Below, piece after piece: positions 1,495-26,808 of a DNA stretch of 30,052 bases. Source of the stretch: a virus; IMG/VR virus record IMGVR_UViG_3300032116_000956, positions 1-30,052 of that record. The stretch is one strand, 5' to 3'. A program made the position numbers and the translations under genes. Below the pieces are notes generated by a model. The model was not told the DNA's origin. It searched no databases and saw only the letters and a list, made by a program, of their open reading frames with translations. The first letter of the stretch is position 1. Each line of letters begins with the position of its first letter.

Positions 1495-2752
1495 GATTAT
1501 AACAACACACCAAGAATATACAGAATTATTAGAACGAATGAATCGGGATGAGTGTATACTTACCCCGATTTTTCGTGACCCATATTATCATGAAACGGAG
1601 AATACTTTATTATGTGCTGGAGTTACTTTTATAGATAATAGTACCTATATTGTTTCTATATCACATGAGGATGCGCCCACCTTTAACATTCCTGTGGGTA
1701 GTAAAGTATTGTCGGACACGGACATTCAAATTCTTGCATATGTGAATAATCAACCAATACTACAAAAACAATTAACCGTATATATAACAAATACGTATCA
1801 ACAATTTTCTGGTATTAGGGATACGAACAAGATTGTACCGCTTATGGTGTGGACCAACGTATTACGGGAATATCACACGCAACTACTTGGCGTATTAAGA
1901 GAGTATTATAATACGATAAATGAACCAGCATACATCTTTGTTAAACAATTATCGGATACATTGAAAGAAATTGAAACTGCTGGAATCAAGGTAAATACGG
2001 AATTGTTGGAACAGTATTATGATAAGCGCGTGAAACGACATTTTAAACATGACATGGTATACACGCAGTATAATGTTTTCACCACAACGGGACGGCCTAG
2101 TAACCGATTTGGGGGAATTAATTTCTCTGCCTTAAATAAGAGTGATGGAAGTAGAGAAGTATTTATTAGTAGATATACAGACGGTGTACTCGTACAGTTT
2201 GATTTTGAAGCATATCATTTGCGATTAGTTGCAGACGAGCACAAGATTACACTTCCCACGGGTTCACTGCATATGGAATTGGCTAAAAAGTATTTTGATA
2301 CTAATGATATTACAGACGAACTATATGCAGCAAGTAAGCAAAAAACGTTTGAAATTATGTATGGCATGTCCGATGAAACGTATGGCGTGGAACTCTTTGA
2401 GAGTATCGTACATATCCGACGATTCTACAAAGATGTAACTGGGCCATTTGTATTACCAAGTGGCGTTACCGTCAATTTTACTGAACCTAACATAAGTAAG
2501 ATGTTTAACTATCATGTACAATCACTTGAGATAGTGAAAACACTACCGAAATTACAGAAAGTGTTGGAACTACTTAAAAATACAACGAACCACTTGGTAT
2601 TGTATACTTATGATAGTATATTACTGGATATGCAGACGCTTGATAAGAATATCATTCAAGAGGTTGTGAAAATTCTAGAAGAAAATAAAAAATTTCCGGT
2701 AAGAATTCATGCGGGAAATACATATAATAATATCACGGAGATACGGTTATGA
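1493..2752 (+). CDS. Divergent, reduced family A (Pol I-like) DNA polymerase protein
   Basis: This encodes 419 residues, much shorter than E. coli Pol I (928). From about residue 150 the family A palm and fingers can be followed. 'LKEIETAGIKVN' matches the start of the Pol I polymerase domain, and 'TTGRPSNRFGGINFSAL' matches the TGRLSS..PNLQ region. Motif A is 'VQFDFEAYHLRLVADE', the O-helix/motif B is 'ASKQKTFEIMYGMS' and motif C is 'LYTYDSILLD'. Both metal-binding Asp are kept. By alignment, K758, F762 and Y766 equivalents are present, R754 is Tyr, the steric-gate E710 is His, and E883 is Ser. The first 140 residues have no intact 3'-5' exonuclease motifs. It has its own promoter and its stop overlaps the next start (ATGA). 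A separate family B replicase lies at 14889, so this is an accessory polymerase or a repurposed one. No clear Shine-Dalgarno is seen. Confidence 0.75.
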   Translation: MIITTHQEYTELLERMNRDECILTPIFRDPYYHETENTLLCAGVTFIDNSTYIVSISHEDAPTFNIPVGSKVLSDTDIQILAYVNNQPILQKQLTVYITNTYQQFSGIRDTNKIVPLMVWTNVLREYHTQLLGVLREYYNTINEPAYIFVKQLSDTLKEIETAGIKVNTELLEQYYDKRVKRHFKHDMVYTQYNVFTTTGRPSNRFGGINFSALNKSDGSREVFISRYTDGVLVQFDFEAYHLRLVADEHKITLPTGSLHMELAKKYFDTNDITDELYAASKQKTFEIMYGMSDETYGVELFESIVHIRRFYKDVTGPFVLPSGVTVNFTEPNISKMFNYHVQSLEIVKTLPKLQKVLELLKNTTNHLVLYTYDSILLDMQTLDKNIIQEVVKILEENKKFPVRIHAGNTYNNITEIRL

Positions 2753-3606
2753 ACTTTGAAGTTGGAATTATTGGATTAGGATTTGTTGGTGGCGCAGTTT
2801 TAAATGCATACCAACTAAAAGGACATCATGTACACACATTCGATGTCGATGTAAGTAAAAATCCAACATGCTCCTCGTTTGAGGAGTTTTTAACGAACGC
2901 AAATCTAATTTATGTTGCAGTACCAACACCGATGAATAGTTCTGGTGAATGTGATACGTCTATAGTAGAACGGGTGGTTCATGACCTTTGTATGACGGAT
3001 TCGCAGAAGGTAATTATCATTAAGTCCACAGTTCCGCCTGGTACCACCGAGCGGTTACAGGAACGATATCCAAATCATTATATTCTATTCAATCCAGAAT
3101 TTTTGACAGAAGCAAACTATTTGGATGATTATTTAAATCAAGATGTGCTTGTCATGGGGAAGTCTGACAATACACCTCATGATATTGCTGAAGCAGTATT
3201 AATGAATCAAGTACGGGTAATTAACTCTGTACGATTCGTACAAATCACTACAGCAACTACAGCTGAACTACTGAAGTACACTGCAAACACATTTCTTGCA
3301 GTGAAGGTGTCGTTTGCAAATGAACTGTACGATATTGCAACAGCCGCAGGAGTTGAATGGGAAACTCTACAATCGTTGTTAGTCCAGGATGCTCGTTTGG
3401 GTAAGAGTCACTGGAAAGTTCCAGGTCCCGATGGCCACCGAGGATTTGGTGGCACGTGTTTCCCGAAAGATATTTCGGCATTAATTAACTATGCAAAAAC
3501 AAAAGACGTACAGACCCCACTTTTACGTGCAGCATGGAATAGAAATGTTATTGTAGACCGTCCAGAACGTGATTGGGAAACGTTAAAAGGTAGAGCAATT
3601 TCTTAG
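2749..3606 (+). CDS. Short UDP-glucose/GDP-mannose dehydrogenase-like protein
   Basis: This encodes 285 residues of the nucleotide-sugar 6-dehydrogenase family, which oxidises UDP-glucose-type substrates to uronic acids with two NAD+. The Rossmann motif GLGFVGGAV is at residues 9-17. 'AVPTPMNSSGECDTS' covers about 57-71, 'NPEFLTEA' 115-122, the 'LLKYTANT' Lys/Asn pair 176 and 180, and the catalytic-cysteine motif 'GFGGTCFPKD' 232-241 (Cys237). The usual enzymes are about 390-450 residues; this one ends shortly after the central dimerisation helix, so the C-terminal UDP-binding domain is missing. It is translationally coupled to the polymerase A-like gene (ATGA at 2749-2752). A role in supplying or altering nucleotide sugars, for DNA glycosylation or surface glycans, is inference. 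Confidence 0.85.
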   Translation: MNFEVGIIGLGFVGGAVLNAYQLKGHHVHTFDVDVSKNPTCSSFEEFLTNANLIYVAVPTPMNSSGECDTSIVERVVHDLCMTDSQKVIIIKSTVPPGTTERLQERYPNHYILFNPEFLTEANYLDDYLNQDVLVMGKSDNTPHDIAEAVLMNQVRVINSVRFVQITTATTAELLKYTANTFLAVKVSFANELYDIATAAGVEWETLQSLLVQDARLGKSHWKVPGPDGHRGFGGTCFPKDISALINYAKTKDVQTPLLRAAWNRNVIVDRPERDWETLKGRAIS

Positions 3607-8863: not shown

Positions 8864-10714
8864 ATGTTGTTAGAATCAAAGCTATTGTCGGAAATTACGA
8901 CATTTATGAAATATGCGAAGTACATACCAGAACTACAACGCAGAGAAACATGGGAAGAATTGGTGACCCGTAACAAAAATATGCACCTACAGAAGTTTCC
9001 GCACTTGAGTGCAGAAATCGAAGACGCATATACATTTGTCTACGAGAAGAAGATTCTCCCCAGTATGCGCTCGTTGCAGTTTGCTGGTAAACCAATTGAA
9101 ATTAATAATGCACGATTGTATAATTGTTGCTTTCTTCCTATAGACCATCCAGATGCCTTTAGTGAAGTCATGTTTTTATTGTTGTCTGGTACAGGTGTAG
9201 GGTATTCAGTACAGAGACAGCACGTTGAAAAGTTACCAGAGATTACGAAGCCATCCAAGACTCGTCGCTATCTCGTTGGTGATAGTATTGAAGGATGGGC
9301 AGATGCAGTCAAGGTATTGGTAGCTTCGTATTTAAAGGGCAAGCCTCTTCCATTATTTGACTTCCGTGACATTCGTCAGAAGGGTGCATTACTTCTTACG
9401 TCGGGTGGGAAGGCGCCTGGTCCAGAACCGTTGAAGGATGCACTTCACAATATCCAAAAGATTTTTGATCGTAAACAGAACGGTGAACAACTTAGTACGA
9501 TTGAAGTGCATGATATTCTTTGCTACATTGCTGATGCAGTACTCTCTGGTGGTATTCGTCGTTCCGCTATGATCTCTTTGTTTGACTTGGACGATGATGA
9601 CATGCTCACATGTAAGTTCGGTAATTGGTGGGAGAATAATCCACAACGCGCTCGTGCTAATAACAGTGCTGTTATCGTTCGTCACAAGATTGAAAAGGAA
9701 ACATTCTTGGAACTCTGGAAAAAGATTGAATTGAGTGGTTCTGGTGAACCGGGCTTTTTCTTCACGAACGATGCAAGTTGGGGGCTGAACCCGTGTGCGG
9801 AAATTTCTCTCCGTCCCTTTCAGTTCTGTAATCTTACTACCATTGATGCAGGAAGTGTGGTAGACCAAGATGACCTGAATGCCCGTGCACGGGCAGCCGC
9901 CTTTATTGGTACCCTTCAAGCAAGTTATACGAACTTCCACTATTTGAGAGATATATGGAAAAAGACTACCGAACGCGAAGCACTGATTGGCGTATCTATG
10001 ACCGGTATTGCCTCTGGTGCGGTACTAAAGCTGGATATGAAGGAAGCAGCAAATCTAGTGAAGGCGGAGAACGAAAGAGTAGCGGAATTACTTGGCATCA
10101 AGAAAGCTGCCCGTACTACTACGGTCAAGCCCGAAGGTACCTCTTCGCTGGTACTTGGGACTTCCTCTGGAATTCATGCTTGGCATAACGAGTATTACAT
10201 CCGTCGTATTCGTGTCGGTAAGAATGAAAGTATTTACTCGTACTTGTTGTTCAACCACCCAGAACTCTTGGAAGACGATTACTTCAAGCCGAACATTCAA
10301 GCCGTTATCGGTATCCCACAACGTGCTCCAGAAGGAGCAGTTACCCGTCAAGAAACGGCACTTGATTTACTTGGTAGAGTAAGTAAGGTTTGGAAGGATT
10401 GGGTGAAGACGGGCCATCGTAAGGGTGAGAACAAGAATAATGTTTCGGTCACCGTGTCCATCAAGGATGGGGAGTGGGAAGAAGTTGGAGAATGGATGTG
10501 GACCAATAAGGAAAACTTCACGGCACTCAGTGTGTTACCGTTCTCTGACCATAGCTATGTGCAGGCCCCATTTGAAGACATCACGAAGGAAAAGTATGAA
10601 GAGCTTCTAACACACTTACATATGATTGATTTAACGCAAGTGGTTGAATTGGAAGACGTAACAAACCTTGCCGGTGAAGTTGCATGTGGTGCTGGAGGAT
10701 GTGAGGTTATTTAA
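8864..10714 (+). CDS. nrdJ: Adenosylcobalamin-dependent (class II) ribonucleotide reductase, monomeric RTPR type
   Basis: This encodes 616 residues. It converts ribonucleotides to deoxyribonucleotides, using adenosylcobalamin rather than a second subunit to make the thiyl radical. The radical cysteine and its partner glutamate are in 'NPCAEI' (Cys311, Glu313). The reducing pair is Cys88 or Cys89 ('YNCCF') with Cys322 ('FCNLTT'). The C-terminal relay pair is Cys608 and Cys613 ('ACGAGGCEV'). The spacings 311-322 and 608-613 equal those of Lactobacillus leichmannii RTPR (408-419 and 731-736). It is shorter than that enzyme (739). A GGAG RBS lies nine bases upstream. No NrdB-like subunit is in the window. 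The thioredoxins downstream are its natural electron donors, and the TonB-dependent receptor follows 17 bases later. Confidence 0.92.
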   Translation: MLLESKLLSEITTFMKYAKYIPELQRRETWEELVTRNKNMHLQKFPHLSAEIEDAYTFVYEKKILPSMRSLQFAGKPIEINNARLYNCCFLPIDHPDAFSEVMFLLLSGTGVGYSVQRQHVEKLPEITKPSKTRRYLVGDSIEGWADAVKVLVASYLKGKPLPLFDFRDIRQKGALLLTSGGKAPGPEPLKDALHNIQKIFDRKQNGEQLSTIEVHDILCYIADAVLSGGIRRSAMISLFDLDDDDMLTCKFGNWWENNPQRARANNSAVIVRHKIEKETFLELWKKIELSGSGEPGFFFTNDASWGLNPCAEISLRPFQFCNLTTIDAGSVVDQDDLNARARAAAFIGTLQASYTNFHYLRDIWKKTTEREALIGVSMTGIASGAVLKLDMKEAANLVKAENERVAELLGIKKAARTTTVKPEGTSSLVLGTSSGIHAWHNEYYIRRIRVGKNESIYSYLLFNHPELLEDDYFKPNIQAVIGIPQRAPEGAVTRQETALDLLGRVSKVWKDWVKTGHRKGENKNNVSVTVSIKDGEWEEVGEWMWTNKENFTALSVLPFSDHSYVQAPFEDITKEKYEELLTHLHMIDLTQVVELEDVTNLAGEVACGAGGCEVI

Positions 10715-10731
10715 ACCTTTATACTAATCTT

Positions 10732-13410
10732 ATGTTGAGAAAATTATTAACTGCTGTTTTCATATTGTGTCCAACATTGGTTCAGGCACAAACTGGTCAG
10801 ATTGTTGGAAAAGTCCTTGACGCTACGACAGGTCAAGGTATCGTGGACGCAGGAATTCAAGTCGTAGGTACCACAACGGGTGGTGCCTCCGGCTTGGACG
10901 GACGGTATCGGTTGAAGGTAGGAGCTGGCACCGTAACCCTGCAAGTTCGTCGTATTGGATACACCCCAAAGACTATCACTGGGATTGTTGTCCCCGTCGA
11001 TGGTATTATTAATCAAGATGTGTCACTGACTGCTGCAAAAATTCAACTCGCGGCAGTGAGTGTCACGGCAGCAAAAGAAAAGGGAACGATTAGTGAAGCA
11101 TTGAATCAACAAAGAAATTCGACAAATGTGGTCAATGCTATTACCGCAGAACAAATCTCTCGTTCCCCCGATGGAGATGCGGCACAAGCAGCACAGCGTA
11201 TTAGCGGTGTTACGGTACAAGATGGGAAATACTTACAAGTTCGTGGATTAAGTGAACGGTATACGACGGCAGCATTAAACGGTGTTCGTATTCCAAGCCC
11301 AGAACCAGAACGTAAAGTTGTTCCGTTAGATTTATTTCCTACATCACTACTTCAAGATATTAGTACCAGTAAAACATTCTCTCCAGACCAACCTGGTGAC
11401 TTTGCTGGAGCAAATATTAATATTCGTACGAAGGAATTTCCTGCAAATCGTGAAGTGAATTATTCAGTTGGGTTTGGTGGAAACTCGGTGGTACTCAATG
11501 AATATATGCCGACTGCTCCACGAGTTGGCGGTGAAAGACTTGGATTAGTCGGTTCATCACGTAACATGCCAACCGCATTGCAGCAAGCAAATTTTTTTGG
11601 TACAGTAACTCCACAGCAGATGCAGGATATTGTAACTCAGCAACGTAATGTTTGGTCACCCATTTATCGAAATGGAATGGGAAATGGGTCAGTGGGGGTA
11701 TCTGCCGGTGGAAACAGTATTCTTGGAAAACGTATTGGATATGTTGTTAGTGCCAATTATGGATATTCTGAAGAACGAAAGGCTGATGAAGTTACTGCCG
11801 TAGGTAATCAAGGAGCAAACAATACCGTGGTACCACTTACCACGTTACAAGGTACCACCGGCAGAGTTGGTGTACAGTGGGGAGGAATAGCAAATCTTTC
11901 GGCAATGTTAGGTCAAAACTCTCGTATAGCATTGAACACTACCCTTACCAGAAATGCTGATAATGAAGCACGAGTAGACGGTGGATTTGATGAAAATCTA
12001 AATGACAGTATTGCTCGTACCACGTTACGATATGTTGCCCGTGGAGTGGTGAACATGACCGCACTGGGTGAACATCAAGTATCCAATGCAAATAAAACTG
12101 CATGGTCATTGACATATGGTAACACTGTTCGAAAAGAACCCGACCGTTCTGATGTGGTATATTCTCGTGTATCTGCTGGTACCTATCGTATTTTGTCTTC
12201 GTTAGACGGTGCTCGTCGTGTCTATTTCGATTTGGGAGAAACCAATATCGTAGGACAAGTAGACCACACGTTTACGTTGAATCAAAATCTTATTAAGGTG
12301 GGACTATATAGTAGAACCACGAATAGAACGGCAGAGGCACCGATATATGCATTTATATCCAGAGCAAACGAAGAGATTACTGCACAACCTGCTAATGTAA
12401 TTTTCAGTAAAGAACAAGCTACTACGGTAAATGTACAACCTATCGGACAAGCCGGTTCATATACCGCATCCGACGTAACACAAGCTACTTATGCAATGTC
12501 AGAATGGCAATTAACGGATAAGGTACGAATGATTGCTGGTGGACGTTTGGAATCAGCAACCATCAAAGTAAATACCAGAACCCAAGGTGGATTTGAAGCT
12601 GGGTCTGGGTTAGAAAACATGGATGTATTACCGTCATTATTAATTAATACAAAATTAACAGACGCACAAAATCTTCGATTTGCTGTGTCTCGCACACTAT
12701 CTCGTCCAGAGTATCGGGAACTATCACCGGTTACATTCCGTGACGTATTAGGTGGTGTGAGTATTACTGGAAATAGTAATCTCCAACGAGCACTCATTAA
12801 TAATGTAGATATTCGTTACGAATGGTTTCCAACGAATTATGAAGTCATAAGTGTTGGTGTATTCAGCAAACACTTTATCAACCCCATAGAACGATTGGAA
12901 CAGGCAACGTCTGGGGCATACCAAGCACGATTCCAGAATGCCATCTCTGCAACAAATTATGGCGTGGAACTAGAACTTCGTAAACAACTCTTGACACATG
13001 TGAGTACATTTAGTAATATTACTTTGATGCATTCGTTGGTACAATTAGATACCACGCAAGCATTAACGGTGACGGACAAATCCAGAGCCTTGGTTGGACA
13101 AGCACCGTATGTCATGAACACGGGATTGACGTATTCATCATTGGATGGTAAAACCAACGCAACCATTCTCTTTAATAGAGTGGGTGACAGAATCTTTGCA
13201 GCAGGTGTTATGCCGCTTCCCAATATCGTGGAAAAGGCCAGAAACTTGTTAGATGTCACAGTTAAAATGCCGGTGGCTCACAATGTCACCGCACGATTAG
13301 ATATGCGTAATTTGTTGGACGCTCGTTATAGTTATACACAAGGAACTATGGAGCGTGAAGGATTTAATGCAGGACGAACACTTTCATTTGGAGTTTCAAT
13401 AAAACAATGA
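10732..13410 (+). CDS. TonB-dependent outer-membrane receptor encoded by the phage
   Basis: This encodes 892 residues. The N-terminus is a signal peptide (MLRK, hydrophobic to 17, cleavage likely after Ala19 of VQA). Residues about 23-100 form a carboxypeptidase-regulatory-like beta domain ('VGKVLDATTGQGIVDAGIQV', 'GLDGRYRLKV', 'VRRIGYTPKTITGI'). A Ton-box-like 'AVSVTA' is at 108-113. The plug follows, with 'RGLSERYTTAALNGVRIPSP' at about 171-190, 'VVPLDLFPTSLL' at 197-208 and 'PDQPGDFAGANINI' at 218-231. The remainder is a beta-barrel ending 'GRTLSFGVSIKQ'. Family members use TonB/ExbBD energy to import siderophores, cobalamin or glycans. It lies 17 bases after the B12-dependent RNR and its stop overlaps the thioredoxin start. 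No frameshift is seen and its A/T-rich codon use matches its neighbours. The substrate is unknown. No clear RBS is seen. Confidence 0.93.
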   Translation: MLRKLLTAVFILCPTLVQAQTGQIVGKVLDATTGQGIVDAGIQVVGTTTGGASGLDGRYRLKVGAGTVTLQVRRIGYTPKTITGIVVPVDGIINQDVSLTAAKIQLAAVSVTAAKEKGTISEALNQQRNSTNVVNAITAEQISRSPDGDAAQAAQRISGVTVQDGKYLQVRGLSERYTTAALNGVRIPSPEPERKVVPLDLFPTSLLQDISTSKTFSPDQPGDFAGANINIRTKEFPANREVNYSVGFGGNSVVLNEYMPTAPRVGGERLGLVGSSRNMPTALQQANFFGTVTPQQMQDIVTQQRNVWSPIYRNGMGNGSVGVSAGGNSILGKRIGYVVSANYGYSEERKADEVTAVGNQGANNTVVPLTTLQGTTGRVGVQWGGIANLSAMLGQNSRIALNTTLTRNADNEARVDGGFDENLNDSIARTTLRYVARGVVNMTALGEHQVSNANKTAWSLTYGNTVRKEPDRSDVVYSRVSAGTYRILSSLDGARRVYFDLGETNIVGQVDHTFTLNQNLIKVGLYSRTTNRTAEAPIYAFISRANEEITAQPANVIFSKEQATTVNVQPIGQAGSYTASDVTQATYAMSEWQLTDKVRMIAGGRLESATIKVNTRTQGGFEAGSGLENMDVLPSLLINTKLTDAQNLRFAVSRTLSRPEYRELSPVTFRDVLGGVSITGNSNLQRALINNVDIRYEWFPTNYEVISVGVFSKHFINPIERLEQATSGAYQARFQNAISATNYGVELELRKQLLTHVSTFSNITLMHSLVQLDTTQALTVTDKSRALVGQAPYVMNTGLTYSSLDGKTNATILFNRVGDRIFAAGVMPLPNIVEKARNLLDVTVKMPVAHNVTARLDMRNLLDARYSYTQGTMEREGFNAGRTLSFGVSIKQ

Positions 13411-13673
13411 TTCATGTAACACGATTTAGCGCACCTTGGTGCGGCCCTTGTAAACTCTTAGCACCCGAGTTTAAAAAGTTGGAAGAACAATTTACCGATG
13501 TAAAATTTATTACCGTAGATGTTGATGAGAAGCCGATGATTGCACAACTCTATGCAATTAGAAATGTTCCAACGGTAATTATTGAGAAAGACAACCAGAC
13601 GATAGATAGAATGGTTGGACTACAATCAAAACAAAAATATATTGATGCAATTACTTCGGCTTTAAGTGACTAA
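13407..13673 (+). CDS. Thioredoxin, short form
   Basis: This encodes 88 residues with the classic active site WCGPC at 11-15 and the cis-proline 'NVPTVII' near residue 53. It is shorter than E. coli thioredoxin (about 108), lacking the first strand and helix, a form common in phages. It would reduce disulfides, most plausibly the C-terminal cysteines of the class II RNR encoded upstream. The start codon overlaps the stop of the TonB-dependent receptor gene (ATGA at 13407-13410), so the receptor, thioredoxin and RNR are likely on one transcript. T7 DNA polymerase uses host thioredoxin for processivity, but nothing here shows such a role. Confidence 0.93.
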   Translation: MIHVTRFSAPWCGPCKLLAPEFKKLEEQFTDVKFITVDVDEKPMIAQLYAIRNVPTVIIEKDNQTIDRMVGLQSKQKYIDAITSALSD

Positions 13674-13676
13674 TAT

Positions 13677-14039
13677 ATGTGTAGTAAAAAACGTTCATCG
13701 TTAAATAAAATTGAACAAAAAGTCTATGATATTTTGAAACGGTTGAATGTAAAATTTGAGGCACAGATAGAGATTGATAAATACAATGTTGACTTCTTGG
13801 TGAATGGCGAGTATATTATTGAATGTTATGGAGATTTCTGGCATTGTAATCCACAAAAATATAAACCGAGTTATTTTAATAAAGGAAAAAAGAAAACTGC
13901 TCAAGAAATTTGGGTTAGAGATTTAGAAAGAAAAACTAGATTTCAAGAACTTGGTTATAAATTTATCCATCTCTGGGAAGCTGATATTAATAGTAATACC
14001 AAAAAAATAAAATCAAAACTCAAACGTTATTTGGAGTAA
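13677..14039 (+). CDS. Vsr-superfamily (PD-(D/E)XK-like) endonuclease, probable mobile/homing type
   Basis: This encodes 120 residues. The Vsr/EDxHD fold pattern is visible: 'NKIEQKVYDIL' helix, 'VDFLVNGEYIIECYGDFWH' with Asp39, Glu49 and His56, then 'WVRDLERKTRFQELGYKF' (the RD of Vsr proteins) and 'HLWEADI'. Vsr cuts at T-G mismatches; phage relatives of this size act as homing endonucleases. The GYGDFWH-like segment replaces the GCFWH of true Vsr, so mismatch repair is less likely. It sits between two thioredoxin-like genes with three- and four-base gaps, is more A/T-rich and lysine-rich than its neighbours, and looks like an inserted selfish gene. Confidence 0.75.
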   Translation: MCSKKRSSLNKIEQKVYDILKRLNVKFEAQIEIDKYNVDFLVNGEYIIECYGDFWHCNPQKYKPSYFNKGKKKTAQEIWVRDLERKTRFQELGYKFIHLWEADINSNTKKIKSKLKRYLE

Positions 14040-14043
14040 TAAT

Positions 14044-14427
14044 ATGGTCACGGAAATTACCATGGCTGAGATGATTGAGCCTCTTCCATACCAAGATAGT
14101 ATAATTAGGGTAGTAATGTTTTATGGTCCCACATGTGGTCCCTGTAAAGCTACTATGCCCCACTACGAGGCAGTTTCAACCTTGTTTGAAGGTATGCCAG
14201 TTGATATTCAATTTTTTAAGATAAATGCGTGGGAACCTGTAGAACAAAAGGAGTTTGTGTCTACCACGTATGGAATCAATGGAGTCCCTCACTTTAAGTC
14301 GTTTTTTCGTGGCCAGAATGCTACTGAAAAAATTGGTGGTGGTGATGAGGCTACAATGAAAAAGTTTATATATGAAGTAATAGATGAAGTGTTTAAACAA
14401 CATGGGGGTAAAATAAATGAAGGTTAA
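14044..14427 (+). CDS. Second thioredoxin-like protein (CGPC)
   Basis: This encodes 127 residues with 'YGPTCGPCKATMP' (CGPC at 31-34) and the cis-proline region 'INGVPHFKSFF'. The preceding Thr replaces the usual Trp of WCGPC. A longer helical C-terminus ('DEATMKKFIYEVIDEVFK') distinguishes it from the short thioredoxin at 13407. It may be a glutaredoxin-like or RNR-specific thioredoxin, or may act on other targets; substrate specificity cannot be read from the sequence. Its stop overlaps the dUTPase start by eleven bases, placing it in the same nucleotide-metabolism operon. Confidence 0.85.
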   Translation: MVTEITMAEMIEPLPYQDSIIRVVMFYGPTCGPCKATMPHYEAVSTLFEGMPVDIQFFKINAWEPVEQKEFVSTTYGINGVPHFKSFFRGQNATEKIGGGDEATMKKFIYEVIDEVFKQHGGKINEG

Positions 14428-14836
14428 AAAGTTATTTTTTGATGCAGGACTACCGCAAAAAGCACATGCCGGTGATTTGGGATATGACCTATTTAGTTTG
14501 GGAGTCACCACGATTTATCCGGGCCAAACGGAATTGGTGGGTACAGGAGTGTGTATTCAATTCCCAGAGGGATACGGAGCACTTATCCGTGACCGTTCCA
14601 GTGTGGCAACTAAACGAAATTTGTTTGTTGTCGCAGGAGTCATTGACAATGGGTATACGGGAGAAATTAAAGTTGCTCTCCACAACGCGGGTGAAGATGT
14701 TCAACGGATTAGCCACGGAGAAAAGATTGCACAGTTAATTCTAGTACCTACGGTGGATTTTATTGTAGAAGAAGTGACGCAATTAGAATCTTCTGATGGT
14801 AGAAATGATAAGGGATTTGGTTCAACAGGGACTTGA
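14417..14836 (+). CDS. dut: dUTPase (deoxyuridine triphosphate nucleotidohydrolase)
   Basis: This encodes 139 residues, the usual trimeric dUTPase length. All five motifs are present: I 'HAGDLGYDLFS', II 'RDRSSVATK', III 'GVIDNGYTGEIKVAL' with the catalytic Asp, IV 'HGEKIAQLIL' and V 'GRNDKGFGSTG', whose Phe closes on the uracil. It hydrolyses dUTP to dUMP, keeping uracil out of DNA and supplying dUMP together with the dCMP deaminase at 26805. The stop codon lies inside the stem of a strong terminator. It is the last gene of the RNR-receptor-thioredoxin block. Confidence 0.96.
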   Translation: MKVKKLFFDAGLPQKAHAGDLGYDLFSLGVTTIYPGQTELVGTGVCIQFPEGYGALIRDRSSVATKRNLFVVAGVIDNGYTGEIKVALHNAGEDVQRISHGEKIAQLILVPTVDFIVEEVTQLESSDGRNDKGFGSTGT

Positions 14837-17460: not shown

Positions 17461-18561
17461 ATGGTTATTATCAAAACCAGTGATTGGCTGATTGGTGAAA
17501 ATAAGTCCGGCGGAAAAAAGTTCTGGCGATTGCACATTCTTCTGGACGGCGACCAGTACTTCACACAGACTGAATGGTATCAAATCAGTAAGACAGGTAA
17601 GGAAACTAAGCGCCAGTTTTCGGAACCTTACTACGCTACACCTACTAATGAGGGTCGTGCAAACGCTCGTGATAGTAAGGAACAGGCTGAGTTTGAGTTT
17701 GATGCTATTATCAAGAAGCAACGAGACAGAGGATTCGGATATGACGGGGAAACTCGTCAGATGTATCCCATGCCGATGCTAGCACACAAGTTCTCTGACC
17801 ATAAGGGTAAGATGGATTTTCCTGTATTCGTGCAACCCAAACTGAATGGCATGCGTATGCTGTTTGATGGATTTGAGGGATGGAGTCGGGGTAATAAGCA
17901 GGTGATTCCCGATGTAATTAAGCACCTCGCGTTCGATACGGCGGGATTTATTTTGGATGGTGAACTCATGCTACCGGGTAATCAACTCCTACAGGAAAGT
18001 ATGAAGGCAATCAAGAAGTATCGTCCAGAACTGTCTTCTAAGTTGCTCTATCATGTGTATGATATTGTAGATGCCGATTTGCCGTATGTAGAACGGTATC
18101 GAATTATCGAAGATATTTGTCGGAATGCGCCGGAGAATATCAAGATTGTTAATACGGTACGAGCAGACGATGAATCACAAGTAATGCATCTTCACCGATT
18201 GTTTGTGAGTGATGGGTTTGAGGGAACAATGGTTCGTGACCCCGCATCTTTCTATGAAATCGGTAAACGTTCGTATTCACTTTTGAAACTCAAGGATTTT
18301 GTTGATGCAGAATATCGTATTGTTAATGTTGTTGACGGCGACGGTTCTGATACCGGCCTCGCAATTTTTGAATTGGAGACTGATTCTGGTGCACGGTTTA
18401 ATTGTCGCCCGGAGGGTTCGCAGGAGAATCGTGCTGAACTCTATAAGAACCGTAAGGAACTGGTCGGCAAGTTTCTCACTGTACGATTCTTTGAGCTGAG
18501 TAAGGATGGTATTCCAATTTTCCCTGTGGGTGTGAGTATCCGAGAATACGGAGAGTTTTAA
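17461..18561 (+). CDS. ATP-dependent DNA ligase with WGR-like N-terminal region
   Basis: This encodes 366 residues. Residues about 1-95 ('GGKKFWRLHILLDGDQYFTQ', 'RANARDSKEQAEFEFDAIIK') resemble the WGR-type domain found at the start of some phage ligases. The nucleotidyltransferase core has motif I 'VQPKLNGMR' with adenylated Lys127, motif III/IIIa around 'FILDGELM' (Glu168), motif IV 'GFEGTMVR' (254-259) and motif V 'SLLKLKDF' (Lys276, Lys278), followed by an OB-fold. Motif I reads K-L-N-G rather than K-x-D-G, which is tolerated in some phage ligases. It would seal Okazaki nicks after the exonuclease acts. Its stop overlaps the next start (TAATG). Confidence 0.92.
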   Translation: MVIIKTSDWLIGENKSGGKKFWRLHILLDGDQYFTQTEWYQISKTGKETKRQFSEPYYATPTNEGRANARDSKEQAEFEFDAIIKKQRDRGFGYDGETRQMYPMPMLAHKFSDHKGKMDFPVFVQPKLNGMRMLFDGFEGWSRGNKQVIPDVIKHLAFDTAGFILDGELMLPGNQLLQESMKAIKKYRPELSSKLLYHVYDIVDADLPYVERYRIIEDICRNAPENIKIVNTVRADDESQVMHLHRLFVSDGFEGTMVRDPASFYEIGKRSYSLLKLKDFVDAEYRIVNVVDGDGSDTGLAIFELETDSGARFNCRPEGSQENRAELYKNRKELVGKFLTVRFFELSKDGIPIFPVGVSIREYGEF

Positions 18562-19361
18562 TGTTAATGGTGCGGCAAATTCCCAAGAATGAGGCAGTAG
18601 ACTTTATTCACCGCTATCATTATAGTAAAATTCTCCCGCGACTCACTAAATATTATTTAGGGTATTTTGAAAATGATATACTGGTGGGCGTGGTAACACT
18701 TGGGTGGGGAACTCAGCCACTACAGACAATCAAAAAAATTCTATACAAGCATGACGTAATTACTACCGATTATTACGAAATTGGTAAGATGTGTTTCTTA
18801 CCAGAAAAGAACAAAAGTAATTTCGGTTCGTTTGCAATGAAACTGTTGATTGATTGGGCTAAACAGAATACGACTGTCAAGTTTATTTATACGATGGCAG
18901 ATGGTATTATGGGCAAATGTGGGTTCGTATATCAGGCAGCAAACTTTCGATATCTTGGAAGTTTTAAAACCGATGTCTATATGGATAGAATTACGGGTGA
19001 AAAAATGCACCCTAGAAGTATTAAACCACTACATATAGAAAATGCCAAAATGATTGGAAAGGACAAGGTTTTTTGGCTGACACCAGACTTCTGTGAAGTT
19101 AAAGGAATTGATAGAATTAGAGGTCTGATGTTTCGATATATGTATCCACTGGATAAGAAGGCACGTAAGATGTTGGACAGTTATCCAGAATATGTAAACA
19201 AACCGAATCCAAAAGAAAAAGATTTGGTATTTGAAAAACGTGTACTGACGGGTAAATATGAAGTCATTCCACAACCAAATTTTAATATGAACGTGTTCAC
19301 CCACAATTATCAAAAGTATAAGGTAAATAAAGTGGCAGAAGAATTTTTTAGTATTTCATGA
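18561..19361 (+). CDS. Mom-like GNAT-fold protein, probable DNA-modification or acyltransferase
   Basis: This encodes 266 residues. The N-terminal 150 residues show the Mom/GNAT-like pattern: 'FIHRYHYSKILPRLTKYYLG', 'NDILVGVVTLGWGTQPLQ', 'YEIGKMCFLPEKNKSNFGS' and 'ADGIMGKCGFVYQAANFRYLG'. Phage Mu Mom carries out an N6-carbamoylmethyl-type adenine modification that protects DNA from restriction, and distant relatives are common in large phages. The C-terminal 110 residues ('RYMYPLDKKARKML') are basic and could bind DNA. A second Met two codons in is an alternative start. It sits after the ligase and about 1.75 kb before a TAGT/methyltransferase cluster, suggesting a shared DNA-modification role (inference). 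Confidence 0.75.
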   Translation: MLMVRQIPKNEAVDFIHRYHYSKILPRLTKYYLGYFENDILVGVVTLGWGTQPLQTIKKILYKHDVITTDYYEIGKMCFLPEKNKSNFGSFAMKLLIDWAKQNTTVKFIYTMADGIMGKCGFVYQAANFRYLGSFKTDVYMDRITGEKMHPRSIKPLHIENAKMIGKDKVFWLTPDFCEVKGIDRIRGLMFRYMYPLDKKARKMLDSYPEYVNKPNPKEKDLVFEKRVLTGKYEVIPQPNFNMNVFTHNYQKYKVNKVAEEFFSIS

Positions 19362-19368
19362 TAAGTGT

Positions 19369-19471
19369 GGCAGTGCGGACTGTCGGGAAGTCGGTAGTAA
19401 ATTGGGTTCGCTACTCGTTATAACTTTTACTACGCTAGGCCAAGGAATGAGGTTCGAATCCTCCACTGCCT
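19369..19471 (+). ncRNA. Aberrant tRNA-like element
   Basis: A seven-pair acceptor-like stem joins GGCAGTG (19369-19375) and CACTGCC (19464-19470). A canonical T-arm core GAGG-TTCGAAT-CCTC (19449-19463) sits directly inside it. GACT/AGTC (19378-19392) with loop GTCGGGA could be a D-arm. In the anticodon-arm position there is instead an eight-pair stem GTAGTAAA/TTTACTAC (19394-19433) with a 24-base loop. No five-pair, seven-base-loop anticodon arm can be found. At 103 bases it is too long for an ordinary tRNA. It may be a tRNA with an insertion in the anticodon loop, a decayed tRNA or another structured RNA. It fills the only sizeable gene-free gap (19362-19485). Confidence 0.45.
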
Positions 19472-19485
19472 CTTTGGAGAATTAT

Positions 19486-20010
19486 ATGATTAAACTGATG
19501 TTATTGTTACAATTAACTGGAACACAACCAAAAGTTGTAGAACAGTTATTACCACAACGAAGGGTACAAATACGAGATACAAGTAGAAACTATATTATTA
19601 TCCATAATGATGGTGGCTCTGGTGGATACAATTCGGCTCGTGCAACATTAATTAAACGTCGATTAAGTTATCATTACTATGTAAAACGTGATGGGACGAT
19701 AATGAAACTGTTAGACCCGAAATATGTAGCATCTCATGTTGGATACTCTGTATGGAAAGGGCTGTTTAGAATCAATAAATACAGTATTGGTATTTGTTTA
19801 GAAAATGGTATAACAAAACCATATACACAGTTACAATATCAAAGTACTGCATGGCTCATAAAGCAACTAAGAACACGATATAAAGATACAACAACGTATA
19901 CTGTCGTAGGACATTCAGATGTTGCTTTACCATTAGGACGTAAAGATGACCCTGGACGTAACTTTGATTGGAAAGAATTATCAATCTTATTGAATTCACA
20001 GGAGATGTAG
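19486..20010 (+). CDS. N-acetylmuramoyl-L-alanine amidase (amidase_2 / PGRP fold), probable endolysin
   Basis: This encodes 174 residues from ATG 19486, preceded by GGAG. The frame opens upstream, but that part lies in the tRNA-like element. The amidase_2 zinc site is visible: His40 in 'YIIIHNDGG', His143 in 'TVVGHSDVA' and Asp155 in 'GRKDDPGRNFDW'. 'SYHYYVKRDGTIMKLL' and 'ASHVGYSVWKG' are the family's substrate-groove segments. It cleaves the amide between muramic acid and the peptide stem. Leucines at residues 4-10 (MIKLMLLLQLTG) are too short and unclear to call a signal. No holin is recognised next to it. A role in lysis is most likely; a role in DNA entry is possible. Confidence 0.9.
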   Translation: MIKLMLLLQLTGTQPKVVEQLLPQRRVQIRDTSRNYIIIHNDGGSGGYNSARATLIKRRLSYHYYVKRDGTIMKLLDPKYVASHVGYSVWKGLFRINKYSIGICLENGITKPYTQLQYQSTAWLIKQLRTRYKDTTTYTVVGHSDVALPLGRKDDPGRNFDWKELSILLNSQEM

Positions 20011-20011
20011 T

Positions 20012-20374
20012 ATGGGAATGTTTGATGAAATTCGGGTGCAGCAGATACTGCCCGGTGAATACGAAATTACCGATACGTGGTATCAGACGAAATCGTTAGA
20101 TTGTGCATTATATAAGTATGTAATAACTGCTAATGGTGAATTATATAGGGAAGATTGGGACCATGAATGGGTGGACGATTTAAATTCTCTTTTAAAGGGA
20201 TATATTAAAAAAGTTGATGGAACATATCGTCGTGAATACTTGACAGACTTTCATGGGGATATTATATTTTATACAAGTAAACCGATGGATGGAAATCGTA
20301 TGTGGCGCGATTACCATGCACGATTTACAGACGGTAAGTTATCAAGAATTTGGTTTGAAGATAAACAATATTAA
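20012..20374 (+). CDS. Conserved protein of the 'MGMFDEI' type, unknown function
   Basis: This encodes 120 residues. 'MGMFDEIRVQQILPGEYEI', 'YQTKSLDCALYKYVITANGE' and 'RMWRDYHARFTDGKLSRIWF' match a small protein widely scattered in phages and bacteria, where Q-T-K-x-L-D-C and a later Trp/Arg-rich strand are conserved. The fold is beta-rich with no membrane segment. No activity is known to me. It follows the amidase by one base and precedes the clamp by 17 bases, with AAAGGA as the RBS for the clamp. Confidence 0.65.
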   Translation: MGMFDEIRVQQILPGEYEITDTWYQTKSLDCALYKYVITANGELYREDWDHEWVDDLNSLLKGYIKKVDGTYRREYLTDFHGDIIFYTSKPMDGNRMWRDYHARFTDGKLSRIWFEDKQY

Positions 20375-20391
20375 ATAACAAAGGAACGGTT

Positions 20392-21108
20392 ATGCAAAAG
20401 ACAAAGTTTGAAAAGTTTATTAGTAAGTACAATCTTGGTGGGTCATGTGAAAGTGTAGTGTTCAAGTCAAACGGAACGGACCTGTCGGTCAGAGCAATTT
20501 CGGATGATAAGAATGTATTGGGTGAAGTTGTATTTAAGAATGCTACTTTCCCTGAAGGTGACTTTGGTGTATATGAAACAAAGAAACTGCGTTCAATTCT
20601 AAGTGTTCTTGATGAAAATTTGGAAATCAAAACCAGTTCGGCTAACGAGAAAATCACGGGTCTGAATATCACGGATGGTGCTACGAAGGCAACGTTCGTT
20701 CTTGCGGATATCTCCGTGGTTCCAGCTGTACCAGAACTGAAGAAGCTTCCGCCCATGGACTTTACCATTACATTGGACGAGAAGTTTGTTAACACCTTTA
20801 TCAGAGCAAAAGGTGCATTGAGTGAAGTGGATACGTTTACGGTGATTAGCGAAGGAAAGGATACCACTGCAACGGTGGTGATTGGACACTCCAATCTCAA
20901 TACCAATCGCATTGCAATTAACGCCACTACTGACAAGACGGTTGAACTTACTCCGATTAATTTTTCTGCGAAGTATTTCAAGGAAATTCTTGTAGCAAAT
21001 AAAGATGCTACAAATGGAACTCTTGAAGTTTCTTCAAAGGGATTGGCACGTGCTACCTTTGAAGTCGATAATATTTCAACTGTATACTATCTCGTCCAAG
21101 AGAAGTAA
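20392..21108 (+). CDS. 45: DNA polymerase sliding clamp, T4 gp45-like
   Basis: This encodes 238 residues (T4 gp45 is 228). The protein has the gp45/PCNA-like pattern of two repeated beta-alpha-beta domains: 'TKFEKFISKYNLGGSCESVV' helix-strand opening, 'LRSILSVLDENLEIKTSS', a linker with 'PAVPELKKLP', and a second domain ending 'AKYFKEILVANKD...LARATFEVDNISTVYYLV'. The C-terminal 'VDN...YYLVQ' strand is typical of gp45. It would form a trimeric ring that tethers the family B polymerase, loaded by the gp44/62-like complex. In T4 the order 45-44-62 is contiguous; here three modification genes separate it from the loader. Confidence 0.9.
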   Translation: MQKTKFEKFISKYNLGGSCESVVFKSNGTDLSVRAISDDKNVLGEVVFKNATFPEGDFGVYETKKLRSILSVLDENLEIKTSSANEKITGLNITDGATKATFVLADISVVPAVPELKKLPPMDFTITLDEKFVNTFIRAKGALSEVDTFTVISEGKDTTATVVIGHSNLNTNRIAINATTDKTVELTPINFSAKYFKEILVANKDATNGTLEVSSKGLARATFEVDNISTVYYLVQEK

Positions 21109-21111
21109 TTT

Positions 21112-22332
21112 ATGACTGTGGAAGTTGTAAAGATACATACGAGTAACAAAGAAAAATTAGAACACATACTGAATACAACGGTAATCCCAGGCGACTTCTG
21201 GGATTACACGTTGTCGTATGAATATGATTTCAAAAATCATGATTTCTATGATTTAGATAATGAACATTATTTTAACCTACCAGAGTTTGTTTGGTCGCCG
21301 TATTTAAAAGAACGACATTTAATGGTGGTCACTGTAAAAAGTCAACAAGAAAAAGATATTCTTTTTAATGCGCTAGGTATCAAAGAAAACAAAACTGGAT
21401 ATGTTCATTTTGAATTGGAAGACAATCCATTCAAGGATTATGAGTATGAATACACGCATAAGATTCATCCGAAATATCCAATTTATGTTATTACGAAGGG
21501 TCGTTGGGAACGCACACTTACAATTGATACGTTAGAGGAAATGGGTATTGATTTTAATATTTGCGTGGAACCCGACGAATACGATAGTTATGCGGCTAAT
21601 GTGGATGTAAATAAAATTATCAAACTCCCAGAGAATTTTAGTAAACAAAAACGGGGAAGTATTCCGGTGCGTAACTTTGTCTGGCAGCACTCCGTTGACC
21701 ACGGACATAAGAAGCATTGGGTAATTGATGACAATATTCTTGGCTTCTTCCGATGGAATCACAATATGAAAAAGCGTATTCGTGATGGTGTGTTCTTTAG
21801 AATCATGGAAGATTTCAGTGACCGATATGAAAATCTAGGATTGGTAGGGTGTCAGTATGCATCGTTCGTACCTGCAACTGAGCCTGGTCGAGGCCAATTT
21901 ATTAAGAATACTCGTGTCTATAGTTGTATTCTAATTAATACGGAACTATTAGACCAACGGTTAGATGAACGGTGGCGTGGTACGTATAACGAAGATACGG
22001 ACTTATCTTTACGTGTATTGTCAACGGGTGATTTGTGTACGGTGAACTTCAATAGTCTTCTCAGTGGTAAACAAACTACGGGAACTATGCGAGGTGGTAA
22101 CACAGACACGATTTATGAAGGCGGCACGAATTCTGGTTATCAAAAAAAGTTTGATGAGTTAAAAAAGAATTGGGGTAAGATTGTTAAACTTACAAATGAA
22201 ATGCATGTGGATGGCCGTCCGCACCACTACATTCCATACACCAGATTGTTTAAACAGGATTTGGTATTAAAACCTGGCATTGAGAAAACTCCAACCATTA
22301 ATGAATATAATATGACATTCGTTAAGAGGTAA
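21112..22332 (+). CDS. TAGT-like glycosyltransferase with extra N-terminal domain (putative DNA modification)
   Basis: This encodes 406 residues. From about residue 122 it matches the TET/JBP-associated glycosyltransferase (TAGT) type: 'YPIYVITKGRWERTLTIDTL', 'ICVEPDEYDSY', 'GSIPVRNFVW', the acidic metal motif 'HWVIDDNILGFFRW' (Asp206, Asp207), then 'YNEDTDLSLRVL' and a C-terminal 'GTMRGGNTDTIY'. TAGT proteins are proposed to glycosylate hydroxymethylated or hypermodified bases. The first 115 residues form an unassigned domain with many Tyr and acidic residues. A second related protein follows at 22337 and a methyltransferase after it. No TET/JBP or hydroxymethylase gene is in the window. Target base is unknown. 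Confidence 0.75.
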   Translation: MTVEVVKIHTSNKEKLEHILNTTVIPGDFWDYTLSYEYDFKNHDFYDLDNEHYFNLPEFVWSPYLKERHLMVVTVKSQQEKDILFNALGIKENKTGYVHFELEDNPFKDYEYEYTHKIHPKYPIYVITKGRWERTLTIDTLEEMGIDFNICVEPDEYDSYAANVDVNKIIKLPENFSKQKRGSIPVRNFVWQHSVDHGHKKHWVIDDNILGFFRWNHNMKKRIRDGVFFRIMEDFSDRYENLGLVGCQYASFVPATEPGRGQFIKNTRVYSCILINTELLDQRLDERWRGTYNEDTDLSLRVLSTGDLCTVNFNSLLSGKQTTGTMRGGNTDTIYEGGTNSGYQKKFDELKKNWGKIVKLTNEMHVDGRPHHYIPYTRLFKQDLVLKPGIEKTPTINEYNMTFVKR

Positions 22333-22336
22333 TACT

Positions 22337-23218
22337 ATGGTAGACATATACTCTTTTACCGACACGGGGAAACCATTTGATTTAATCGATTTAAATGAAA
22401 TGGTATATAATTTTATGGACGCAGGGAAACCTTTAGCATCTAAAAACAAATATACTATCTATGTTCCGTCTAAAGGTAGACCATCAACCACAACTGCCAC
22501 GGTGTTGAGTAAAATTGGTTTGGATTATAAATTGGTTATAGAACCACAAGATTACGATAGTTACTGCAAAGTACATTCCCCCGATAAAATAGTAGTATTG
22601 GATAAAAATGACGGGGGATTACGATATGCACGTAAGTTTATAAAACGATATTCCAGAGCCGCTGGTGAAGAAAAGCATTGGGAACTGGACGATGATGTAG
22701 AAAAATTTTTCATTAGACCCAAAGGTTCAACAAAAAATGTAGTAGCGGACCCATTGCTGTGTATGTCTATCGTAGAGTATTGTATGGACATGTTTTCTAA
22801 TGTCGCACTCAGTGGAATATGTAGTTATGCATATGCATTTTCAAAAAACTATGCAGTACAAAAAAATAGACACGTATACCAATGTGTACTATTTGATAAT
22901 TCCGTGAGTGTTGAAGATGACTGTGCATGTGCTATTGAAGATTGGGACCATACGTTGCGTGTATTGGAGGCAGGATATTGTACATTAGCCTTTCATCATA
23001 TTATGCAACAATGTACGCCTACAATGAAACTTCCTGGTGGCGCTACTACCACCGTATACGCCGGTGACAATCGTAAATTGGCATACGAAGCATTTAGTAA
23101 ACTTTGGCCGGGACGATTTGCAGTAAAGGAATACCCCGATTCCATAAAAAGATGGAGACTGCAACATGTACGTAAATTTTTCAATGATTACAAACAAACT
23201 CCAATTTTGAAAACATAA
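22337..23218 (+). CDS. Second TAGT-like glycosyltransferase
   Basis: This encodes 293 residues. The segments 'YTIYVPSKGRPSTTTATVLS' (about 39-58), 'LVIEPQDYDSY' (66-76), 'LRYARKF' and the metal-binding 'HWELDDDVEKFFI' (Asp118-120) align with the gene at 21112. The late part 'CAIEDWDHTLRVLEAGYCTL' replaces its 'YNEDTDLSLRVL', and 'GGATTTVYAGDN' its 'GGNTDTIYEGG'. The two are therefore diverged paralogues, this one lacking the long N-terminal domain. GAGG upstream is the RBS. Cysteines are unusually frequent in the middle (CVLF, DDCACAIE). Role in DNA glycosylation is inferred from family and neighbours. Confidence 0.75.
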   Translation: MVDIYSFTDTGKPFDLIDLNEMVYNFMDAGKPLASKNKYTIYVPSKGRPSTTTATVLSKIGLDYKLVIEPQDYDSYCKVHSPDKIVVLDKNDGGLRYARKFIKRYSRAAGEEKHWELDDDVEKFFIRPKGSTKNVVADPLLCMSIVEYCMDMFSNVALSGICSYAYAFSKNYAVQKNRHVYQCVLFDNSVSVEDDCACAIEDWDHTLRVLEAGYCTLAFHHIMQQCTPTMKLPGGATTTVYAGDNRKLAYEAFSKLWPGRFAVKEYPDSIKRWRLQHVRKFFNDYKQTPILKT

Positions 23219-23219
23219 T

Positions 23220-24437
23220 ATGTATCAATCATACTTTGACAAATTCCTGAACATGACACCTTACCTAGAAATAGGTGAGGAGGAATGGGAACATATTAAA
23301 CAAACGTTTTCCGTAGAAGATGTTAAAGAAAGTATGGCTACCATCTGCATGACGTATCCTATTCCATATAATGATTTAACGGAAGAAGACGCATATAAAA
23401 GTTATATGGATTTGAAGGGAATTCGATGGAATGAGTTGTTGAAGGATGGCGAATGGTTCTATCGTTCCACGAATTCCAGATATGATTTGAGCACGCAATA
23501 CTTTTCAAAAACGAATGTGGGAAGTGTTGCATCTAATTATTTTCAGCAAGAGAATCGGTGGGAGGCAAACTCTAACAGAAGTCCTGGGCCAGCAAAGACG
23601 TGGCGTACGAAGAAGAACATGATTACCCTTATGGGGTCGTTGTTCACATTGAAGGTGGCTCGTATTGATAAAGGAACGTTACGTGGCTGCCTCCACCTCA
23701 GAAAATATACGTGCTCGCAATTCAGACCGAGTGTGGCAAAGGCACTGTATGATAAGTTTGAGGCGAAGACTGTATTAGATTTTTCTATGGGATGGGGTGA
23801 CAGACTTGCAGCCTTCTATGCGGGGAACACGACGGAGCATTATGTCGGATTAGACCCGAAGACAGATAATCATCAATTGTATAATAAACAACGAGACTTT
23901 TATAATAAACATACCAGTTTCTTTGAAAACAATAAACGGAGTGATTTTTATGCAATTCCTGCGGAAGAATTCGATTTCAATAAATATGATAATTATTTCG
24001 ATGTGGTATTTACTTCACCACCATATTATAATGTAGAACATTATAGTCAGGATGATACCCAAAGTTTTAAACGATATAAAACAATTAGTGATTGGAACAC
24101 AAATTTTTTACACAACGTATTGACTAATCTATACCAATCAGTTAGACTACAAGGAGTGGTCGCAATTAATATTGCGGATGTATTCTCCACATCGGATGGT
24201 GGAATGAAACGGTGGTTAGAAATTACGAATCCTATGAATGACCATTTAAAATCATTGGGTATGGAATATATGGGTGCTATTGGTATGGAAATGTCGAAAC
24301 GACCCAACAGTGCTGGAGCAGGTATGGTATTTCAAGGAAGTGCTCCAAATGAATGGACGGATGATACAATGAACCGTGCAGATAATTCAATAAATAAAAC
24401 GTTCTGTGAACCAATTTGGTTATGGAGAAAGGTATGA
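23220..24437 (+). CDS. SAM-dependent methyltransferase with SPPY motif (DNA N-methyltransferase-like)
   Basis: This encodes 405 residues. The SAM-binding motif I is 'TVLDFSMGWGDRLAAFYA' (about 184-201), and 'YVGLDPKTDNH' supplies the acidic ribose contact. The catalytic motif is 'DVVFTSPPYYNVEHYS' (SPPYYN at 266-271), typical of exocyclic-amino DNA methyltransferases (N4-cytosine or N6-adenine). About 180 residues precede motif I, with 'GCLHLRKYTCSQFRPSVAKALY' just before it. No restriction endonuclease accompanies it. With two TAGT-like proteins upstream and a Mom-like gene nearby, it may take part in base hypermodification or protect against host restriction. Its stop overlaps the next start (ATGA). 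Confidence 0.82.
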   Translation: MYQSYFDKFLNMTPYLEIGEEEWEHIKQTFSVEDVKESMATICMTYPIPYNDLTEEDAYKSYMDLKGIRWNELLKDGEWFYRSTNSRYDLSTQYFSKTNVGSVASNYFQQENRWEANSNRSPGPAKTWRTKKNMITLMGSLFTLKVARIDKGTLRGCLHLRKYTCSQFRPSVAKALYDKFEAKTVLDFSMGWGDRLAAFYAGNTTEHYVGLDPKTDNHQLYNKQRDFYNKHTSFFENNKRSDFYAIPAEEFDFNKYDNYFDVVFTSPPYYNVEHYSQDDTQSFKRYKTISDWNTNFLHNVLTNLYQSVRLQGVVAINIADVFSTSDGGMKRWLEITNPMNDHLKSLGMEYMGAIGMEMSKRPNSAGAGMVFQGSAPNEWTDDTMNRADNSINKTFCEPIWLWRKV

Positions 24438-26689: not shown

Positions 26690-26808
26690 CAGAAGAAGAA
26701 TTACGAGAAATTGAAATTAATTGCAACCGTGAGGACATTCCTCGTCTAGTGAAACGTATTAGACACTTACAGGTAGTTATTGAACTGTGTCAGGAGATTC
26801 TTAAATGA
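26686..26808 (+). CDS. Small 40-residue protein, unknown function
   Basis: ATG 26686 overlaps the stop of the gp62-like gene (ATGA) and the TGA at 26806-26808 overlaps the start of the dCMP deaminase gene (ATGA). The product MTEEELREIEINCNREDIPR continues to a hydrophobic-charged helix ending QEILK. It is almost entirely helical and acidic at the start. The two precise overlaps argue that it is a true coupled gene. I recognise no family. Confidence 0.6.
   Translation: MTEEELREIEINCNREDIPRLVKRIRHLQVVIELCQEILK

Follow-up and report, generated by a model that had tools for sequence, protein, structure and literature searches.

The 30-kb virus record examined here (IMGVR_UViG_3300032116_000956, all 30,052 nucleotides of it; hereafter, the window) contains a T4-like replication cluster, found by Pfam. 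The cluster encodes a gp32-like protein, UvsX/RecA, a 5'-3' exonuclease, a DnaB-type helicase, an RNR, a TonB-dependent receptor and thioredoxins, followed by a dUTPase, a family B DNA polymerase, a ligase and a clamp loader (Table 1). A first-pass annotation of the same DNA had placed the receptor 17 bases after the RNR and had its end overlapping a thioredoxin start at ATGA; the gap, the overlap and the coordinates of all three genes were exact on recheck. The presence of a complete 892-aa TonB-dependent receptor, under purifying selection, within a phage replication operon is genuine. The DUF559/MTES_1575 nuclease-like gene (13677-14039), which the annotation overlooked, varies in position among relatives.

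Table 1. Features of the RNR-receptor-thioredoxin region and of the clamp-loader end of the window
Feature	Position	Strand	Evidence and remarks
Class II RNR	8864..10714	+	616 aa; 1L1L sole PDB match; weak Pfam RNR-II insertion domain; PHROG 367
TonB-dependent receptor, very probably of the Gemmatimonadota Pho-locus type	10732..13410	+	892 aa; PF13715, PF07715 and PF14905; 65-69% identity to Gemmatimonadota genes
Receptor signal peptide, residues 1-20 (...LVQAQ)	10732..10791	+	Read from sequence
Receptor CarboxypepD_reg-like N-terminal domain, residues 24-111	10801..11064	+	PF13715, E 1.9e-11
Ton-box-like segment QLAAVSVTA, residues 105-113	11044..11070	+	Kept in phages and host orthologues
Receptor plug domain, residues 127-214	11110..11373	+	PF07715, E 1.1e-10
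Receptor C-terminal outer-membrane barrel match, residues 573-866	12448..13329	+	PF14905, E 1.4e-17
Thioredoxin 1 (CGPC)	13407..13673	+	Pfam; start within receptor stop (ATGA)
DUF559/MTES_1575-type nuclease-like gene, between the two thioredoxins	13677..14039	+	Pfam
Thioredoxin 2 (CGPC)	14044..14427	+	Pfam
dUTPase	14417..14836	+	PF00692, E 6e-26
Gap between clamp-loader gp62 and dCMP deaminase (receptor site in L110 and L112)	26690..26804	+	

Several other features of the window deserve mention. An apparent DNA hypermodification cluster (18561-24437) consists of a Mom-family protein, two TET-associated glycosyltransferases (TAGT) and a methyltransferase-like gene. A short UDP-glucose dehydrogenase-like ORF of 285 aa (2749-3606) has the NAD-binding and central domains without a C-terminal domain match. 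A ClpP-like protease gene (25636-26223) lies within the clamp-loader cluster and is retained in relatives, and the end of the replication cluster is marked by a virion structural protein on the opposite strand (27927-29288, minus strand; PHROG 1645).

By family, the window RNR is a class II enzyme with a predicted dependence on adenosylcobalamin: its PDB match (E 1.9e-32) is an adenosylcobalamin-dependent RNR, and it retains NPCAE and a C-terminal CxxxxC (CGAGGC). It is also an ordinary, well-known phage gene, with a relative in more than 1,000 phage records (1183). One such relative, the class II RNR of Microcystis phage Mel-JY01, is 64% identical to that of the window; a plug domain was sought throughout Mel-JY01, and none was found. 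Compared with the divergent phage L114, the RNR has a dN/dS of 0.05, at synonymous sites that are near saturation.

The receptor scores well above the Pfam cut-offs for its plug domain (PF07715, 42.4 bits against 23.9) and barrel (PF14905, 64.3 bits against 27), and its signal peptide and Ton box are present by reading of the sequence and alignment. PHROGs contains no family for it. A fold search returned TonB-dependent receptors, mostly siderophore receptors; the AlphaFold model, built from 7 phage sequences, is of low confidence (pLDDT 52) and was used for the TonB-dependent receptor fold alone.

The first-pass annotation had named an assembly chimera as one finding that would undo its reading. 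That possibility is contradicted by a virus contig of 145,753 bp that shares a 23-kb stretch with the window at 99.98-99.99% identity, so the arrangement is no one-off chimera, and by independent viral contigs whose receptors, 42-85% identical, stand in phage context.

The distribution of the receptor among phages speaks against a special tie to the RNR. We retrieved 80 viral loci with related RNRs, and 58 loci other than the window had at least 3 kb downstream on which gene order could be read; the receptor followed the RNR in none of the 58. In the nearest loci (L004-L006, RNR 89-92% identical) thioredoxin comes directly after the RNR and the receptor is missing from the gap, and thioredoxin 1 likewise adjoins the RNR in several receptor-less relatives. 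Three phages among those RNR loci carry a receptor 68-70% identical to that of the window, at the clamp-loader end instead: it sits between gp62 and dCMP deaminase in L110 and L112, and after gp62 and one extra ORF in L116. Since gp62 and dCMP deaminase adjoin in the window with no intervening gene, the two receptor sites are reciprocal.

Viral contigs were also searched with a profile, which identified 10 receptor carriers. The RNR-receptor order recurs in one of them, L114, which is a different phage from that of the window, judging by the identities of its receptor (85%), RNR (81%) and helicase (64%). Elsewhere, the receptor follows PolB (L117), occupies yet another place in a phage of the same group by its flanks (L109), or has flanks unrelated to the window phage group (L111, L113 and L115). 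Because its position varies and the RNR-receptor order is rare, the receptor is a mobile, recurrent phage gene for which the RNR link is not defining. The functional link proposed in the first-pass annotation finds no support in the 58 loci, in L114 as the single other instance, or in sister phages that carry the receptor elsewhere; at most, RNR and receptor share their timing in a DNA-precursor operon. The receptor-carrying relatives of the window are a group of freshwater phages.

Two of the unrelated phages have a permuted tmRNA directly downstream of the receptor (L111 12710-12927 and L113 6243-6432; RF04321, 107-118 bits). A relative of the window phage encodes a different TonB-dependent receptor of 1051 aa downstream of PolB (P0005; L096 1297-4452, minus strand, in the record of L024). 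The best match to P0005 in the Gemmatimonadota set searched was 59% identical, and this relative adjoins a generic two-component system with no clear Pho locus.

Cellular relatives of the window receptor were taken from phylum-wide protein searches. The 298 Gemmatimonadota genomes yielded 13 full-length relatives at 65-69% identity and some 70 more at 40-54%; the best among 394 Bacteroidota genomes reached 36%. In a maximum-likelihood tree, eight phage receptors form one clade (100/100) that is sister to the 13 Gemmatimonadota genes, and the L117 receptor groups with another Gemmatimonadota gene (100/98). These two separate placements point to at least two acquisitions from Gemmatimonadota. 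In the lineage of the window the acquisition from the host phylum is most likely an old one: the GC3 of the phage receptor is 0.30, against 0.83 in a host orthologue, and such a phage-like value suggests long residence in phage. Overall GC is 39.6% in the window and 65% in the host orthologue, a large gap, comparable to that between T4-like cyanophages and their hosts.

A Gemmatimonadota host is probable for the window phage, and the tmRNA of its 145-kb sibling is consistent with this assignment (L104 9784-10122, minus strand, equivalent to 142784-143122 of IMGVR_UViG_3300031857_000028; Rfam RF00023, 128 bits). The tag it encodes is GNYNLALAA, and Gemmatimonadota tags are of 9 residues and of the form ANNNLALAA; among the Gemmatimonadota tmRNAs compared, those of G091 and G071 best match its 3' end. 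L109 also has a tmRNA (2252-2599, minus strand). A DNA search of Gemmatimonadota with the first 20 kb of the window returned neither a CRISPR spacer nor a prophage link, and its matches were for the most part to the receptor and to a short piece of the RNR; the host assignment therefore rests on the other evidence. A literature search found no paper on phages of Gemmatimonadota, and the present group offers a handle on them.

The genomic surroundings of the cellular orthologues are informative on function. In each of the 17 Gemmatimonadota loci retrieved around them, the receptor lies side by side with a lipoprotein of about 600 aa, which is beta-helix-like by reading and has no Pfam match. 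This pair has PhoB/PhoR-like genes and/or PstS in reach in all 17 loci (in L191, PhoB/PhoR fall beyond the contig end). As far as the stretches extend, the order is phoB-phoR-receptor-lipoprotein-pstS(-pstAB-phoU or ppx-ppk), with a small lipoprotein, PstS and then PstA/PstB/PhoU or Ppx/Ppk downstream. PstS (360 bits against a cut-off of 205), PhoU (207 against 130) and PstA all exceed their curated cut-offs; the PhoB-like protein matches the PhoB model best, below the cut-off, and the kinase matches PnpS/WalK/PhoR models, below theirs. The same pair of receptor and lipoprotein is found repeatedly in Bacteroidota, and one of these loci has PstS-PstA-PstB-PhoU directly beside it. Most of the Gemmatimonadota Pho loci examined for it (L156-L168, e.g. 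L168 11737-12669) have a divergent Sir2-family gene between phoR and the receptor.

Upstream of the host gene we found by eye a conserved 11-bp direct repeat, CGTGAC-n4-TCGTTGCA-n3-CCGT. Its spacing makes it a candidate Pho box, with putative PhoB binding; no clear site of the classic E. coli type (CTGTCAT repeats) was seen near the host or phage receptor. The motif CGTGACnnnnTCGTTGCAnnnCCGT, present before the host receptor gene, had no match in the window at three or fewer mismatches. In Flavobacterium johnsoniae, the TonB-dependent transporter Fjoh_0545 of the phoBR operon has the domains PF07715, PF13715 and PF14905, and under phosphate depletion it is induced with a log2FC of 8.0 and its neighbouring lipoprotein FII (Fjoh_0546) with one of 9.9 (PMC8115612). 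This low-Pi induction concerns a distant member, to which the Gemmatimonadota genes may be likened through domain match and gene context. A phosphate-starvation receptor is thus the likeliest identity of the cellular family, and the phage gene is, by sequence and tree, orthologous to the one TonB-dependent receptor that the Gemmatimonadota Pho locus contains. We hold its identity as a Pho-locus receptor with high confidence. To our knowledge, no member of this receptor family has been assayed for transport.

The phage copies have kept the parts of the protein that transport would call upon, namely signal peptide, Ton box and plug. Plug residues 131-240 are 85% identical between phage and host, against 65% for the barrel; 404 of the 540 columns that are invariant in hosts are likewise invariant in phages, and the barrel stretches vary at much the same places in both. 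Together with a dN/dS of about 0.09 between the window and L114, the conservation of Ton box and plug indicates that the phage receptor is under selection. As expected of an auxiliary metabolic gene, it is host-derived, conserved in phages and subject to purifying selection. A loss of the C-terminal beta-signal in phages was considered and rejected, as the host proteins end much alike (WRQ / IKQ) with no clear difference.

The lipoprotein partner is missing both in the window and in the complete 145-kb sibling, so phages of the window type would depend on the lipoprotein of the host. Neither PstS nor PhoH was found in the sibling; PhoH is present in the record of L111 and in LR745206. A related receptor, directly adjoined by a Pho-locus-type lipoprotein, occurs in two phages that have no relation to the window group (L097 8572-11798, and L083 8644-12484 in the 634-kb LR745206). 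LR745206 also has a second plug domain at 138255-138581.

Our preferred reading, to which we give a probability of roughly two in three, is that the receptor benefits the phage by importing phosphorus. Because the cellular relatives lie in a phosphate-starvation block, phosphorus import is likelier than the supply of vitamin B12 to the neighbouring enzyme. A receptor captured from the host phylum at least twice, and moving between positions and phages, would be expressed from the DNA-replication and precursor operon of the phage, alongside the DNA-precursor enzymes and free of the host upstream motif. The protein would be exported by Sec, inserted into the outer membrane and energised by the TonB of the host. 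Phosphate or organic phosphate would then pass into the periplasm and on to the host Pst transporter, and the phosphorus could feed the synthesis of phage DNA irrespective of the state of the host's own Pho response.

The serious rival is superinfection exclusion or a decoy function, in which the phage would make its own copy of an outer-membrane protein that serves it or its competitors as receptor; this copy would protect the cell under infection, or bind up tail proteins on vesicles and cell debris. TonB-dependent receptors often serve phages for adsorption, as FhuA does for T5, and 8a8c is among the fold matches of the window protein. The mobility of the gene among phages that are inferred to share a host would suit such a role, as would the different Gemmatimonadota-type receptor P0005 in another relative, as if any receptor would do; some receptor-shielding roles, too, would call for the transport residues to be kept. 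However, few parts of the protein are as conserved as the Ton box and plug, the barrel varies as it does in hosts, both acquisitions resolved in the tree are of Pho-locus receptors, and two unrelated phages add a lipoprotein partner that a decoy would not need. We therefore consider this explanation unlikely, if worth serious attention.

A receptor for iron-siderophores or carbohydrates is less probable still. Most fold matches are siderophore receptors, and carbohydrate uptake was proposed for the related proteins of LR745206 and Mar_Mega_1 (PMC9723777), but the fold matches reflect the common TonB-dependent receptor fold and a poor model, whereas Pho genes surround the orthologues throughout.

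The reading put forward in the first-pass annotation, that the receptor takes up cobalamin for the class II RNR, has become very improbable. The RNR family needs adenosylcobalamin, and the two genes adjoin in the window and in the divergent L114; against this stand the Pho context of the orthologues (17/17), the RNR relatives without a receptor there (58/58) and the sister phages that carry it away from the RNR. The BtuB family model did not match the receptor (the NCBIfam search gave TIGR01782 below its cut-off and a weak siderophore-receptor match), and no cobalamin riboswitch was matched by Rfam in the window, where the neighbours are DNA-replication genes. The cobalamin link is thus rejected on order conservation, BtuB models, riboswitch search and host gene context; the annotation was probably right to suspect a nutrient importer, and wrong or unsupported as to cobalamin as substrate and a functional tie to the RNR. 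Although phages commonly acquire host DNA, a non-functional captured gene or an assembly artefact is scarcely credible given the repeat of the arrangement at 99.98% in a second contig, the 10 viral contigs with the receptor, the low dN/dS (also 0.06-0.07 in the L110-L112 pairs) and the phage-like GC3.

Taking the phosphorus reading more broadly, the balance tips modestly towards a general pattern in which phages of Gemmatimonadota, and separately phages probably of Bacteroidota, repeatedly capture the Pho-locus receptor, sometimes with its lipoprotein, and express it from replication operons that escape Pho control by the host. Viral outer-membrane phosphorus importers would then form a class absent from the literature and the phage protein families searched. 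The case also illustrates that gene context within a phage may be a false guide to function; here it was the host neighbourhood that was informative.

Known systems resemble the window receptor in part. BtuB shares the TonB-dependent receptor fold, and differs in its family model, N-terminal domain and gene context. The Fjoh_0545/FII system has the same Pfam set, and its neighbourhood of PhoB/PhoR and a large downstream lipoprotein is found again around the cellular orthologues; unlike it, the phage copy belongs to a replication operon and has neither PhoB/PhoR nor the lipoprotein nor the host upstream motif beside it. The statement in the first-pass annotation that no phage example was established needs qualifying, since a putative SusC-like TonB-dependent receptor, annotated for carbohydrates, has been reported in the megaphages Mar_Mega_1 and LR745206 (PMC9723777). 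That of LR745206 is, like ours, phage-encoded and TonB-dependent (26% identical to that of the window), although these are huge phages without an assigned host. The gene beside it encodes a homologue of the Pho-locus lipoprotein, which suggests a receptor for phosphorus and not for carbohydrate; such a function would explain the unexplained ‘SusC-like’ receptors of megaphages.

A close functional parallel lies with pstS, phoA and phoH, the phosphorus-acquisition auxiliary genes of cyanophages and other phages (PMC11170926, PMC9958192). Like these, the window receptor is a host-derived Pho-regulon gene in a phage of T4-like gene content. The cyanophage genes are reported to be under host PhoB/PhoR control, whereas no such site was found for the window receptor. 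Their products act in the periplasm, with an inner-membrane system, or in the cytoplasm, whereas the phage receptor would be an energised protein of the outer membrane. The phosphorus auxiliary genes known from phages concern the periplasm and inner membrane; with an energised receptor in the outer membrane, viral control over nutrient supply would reach the cell surface.
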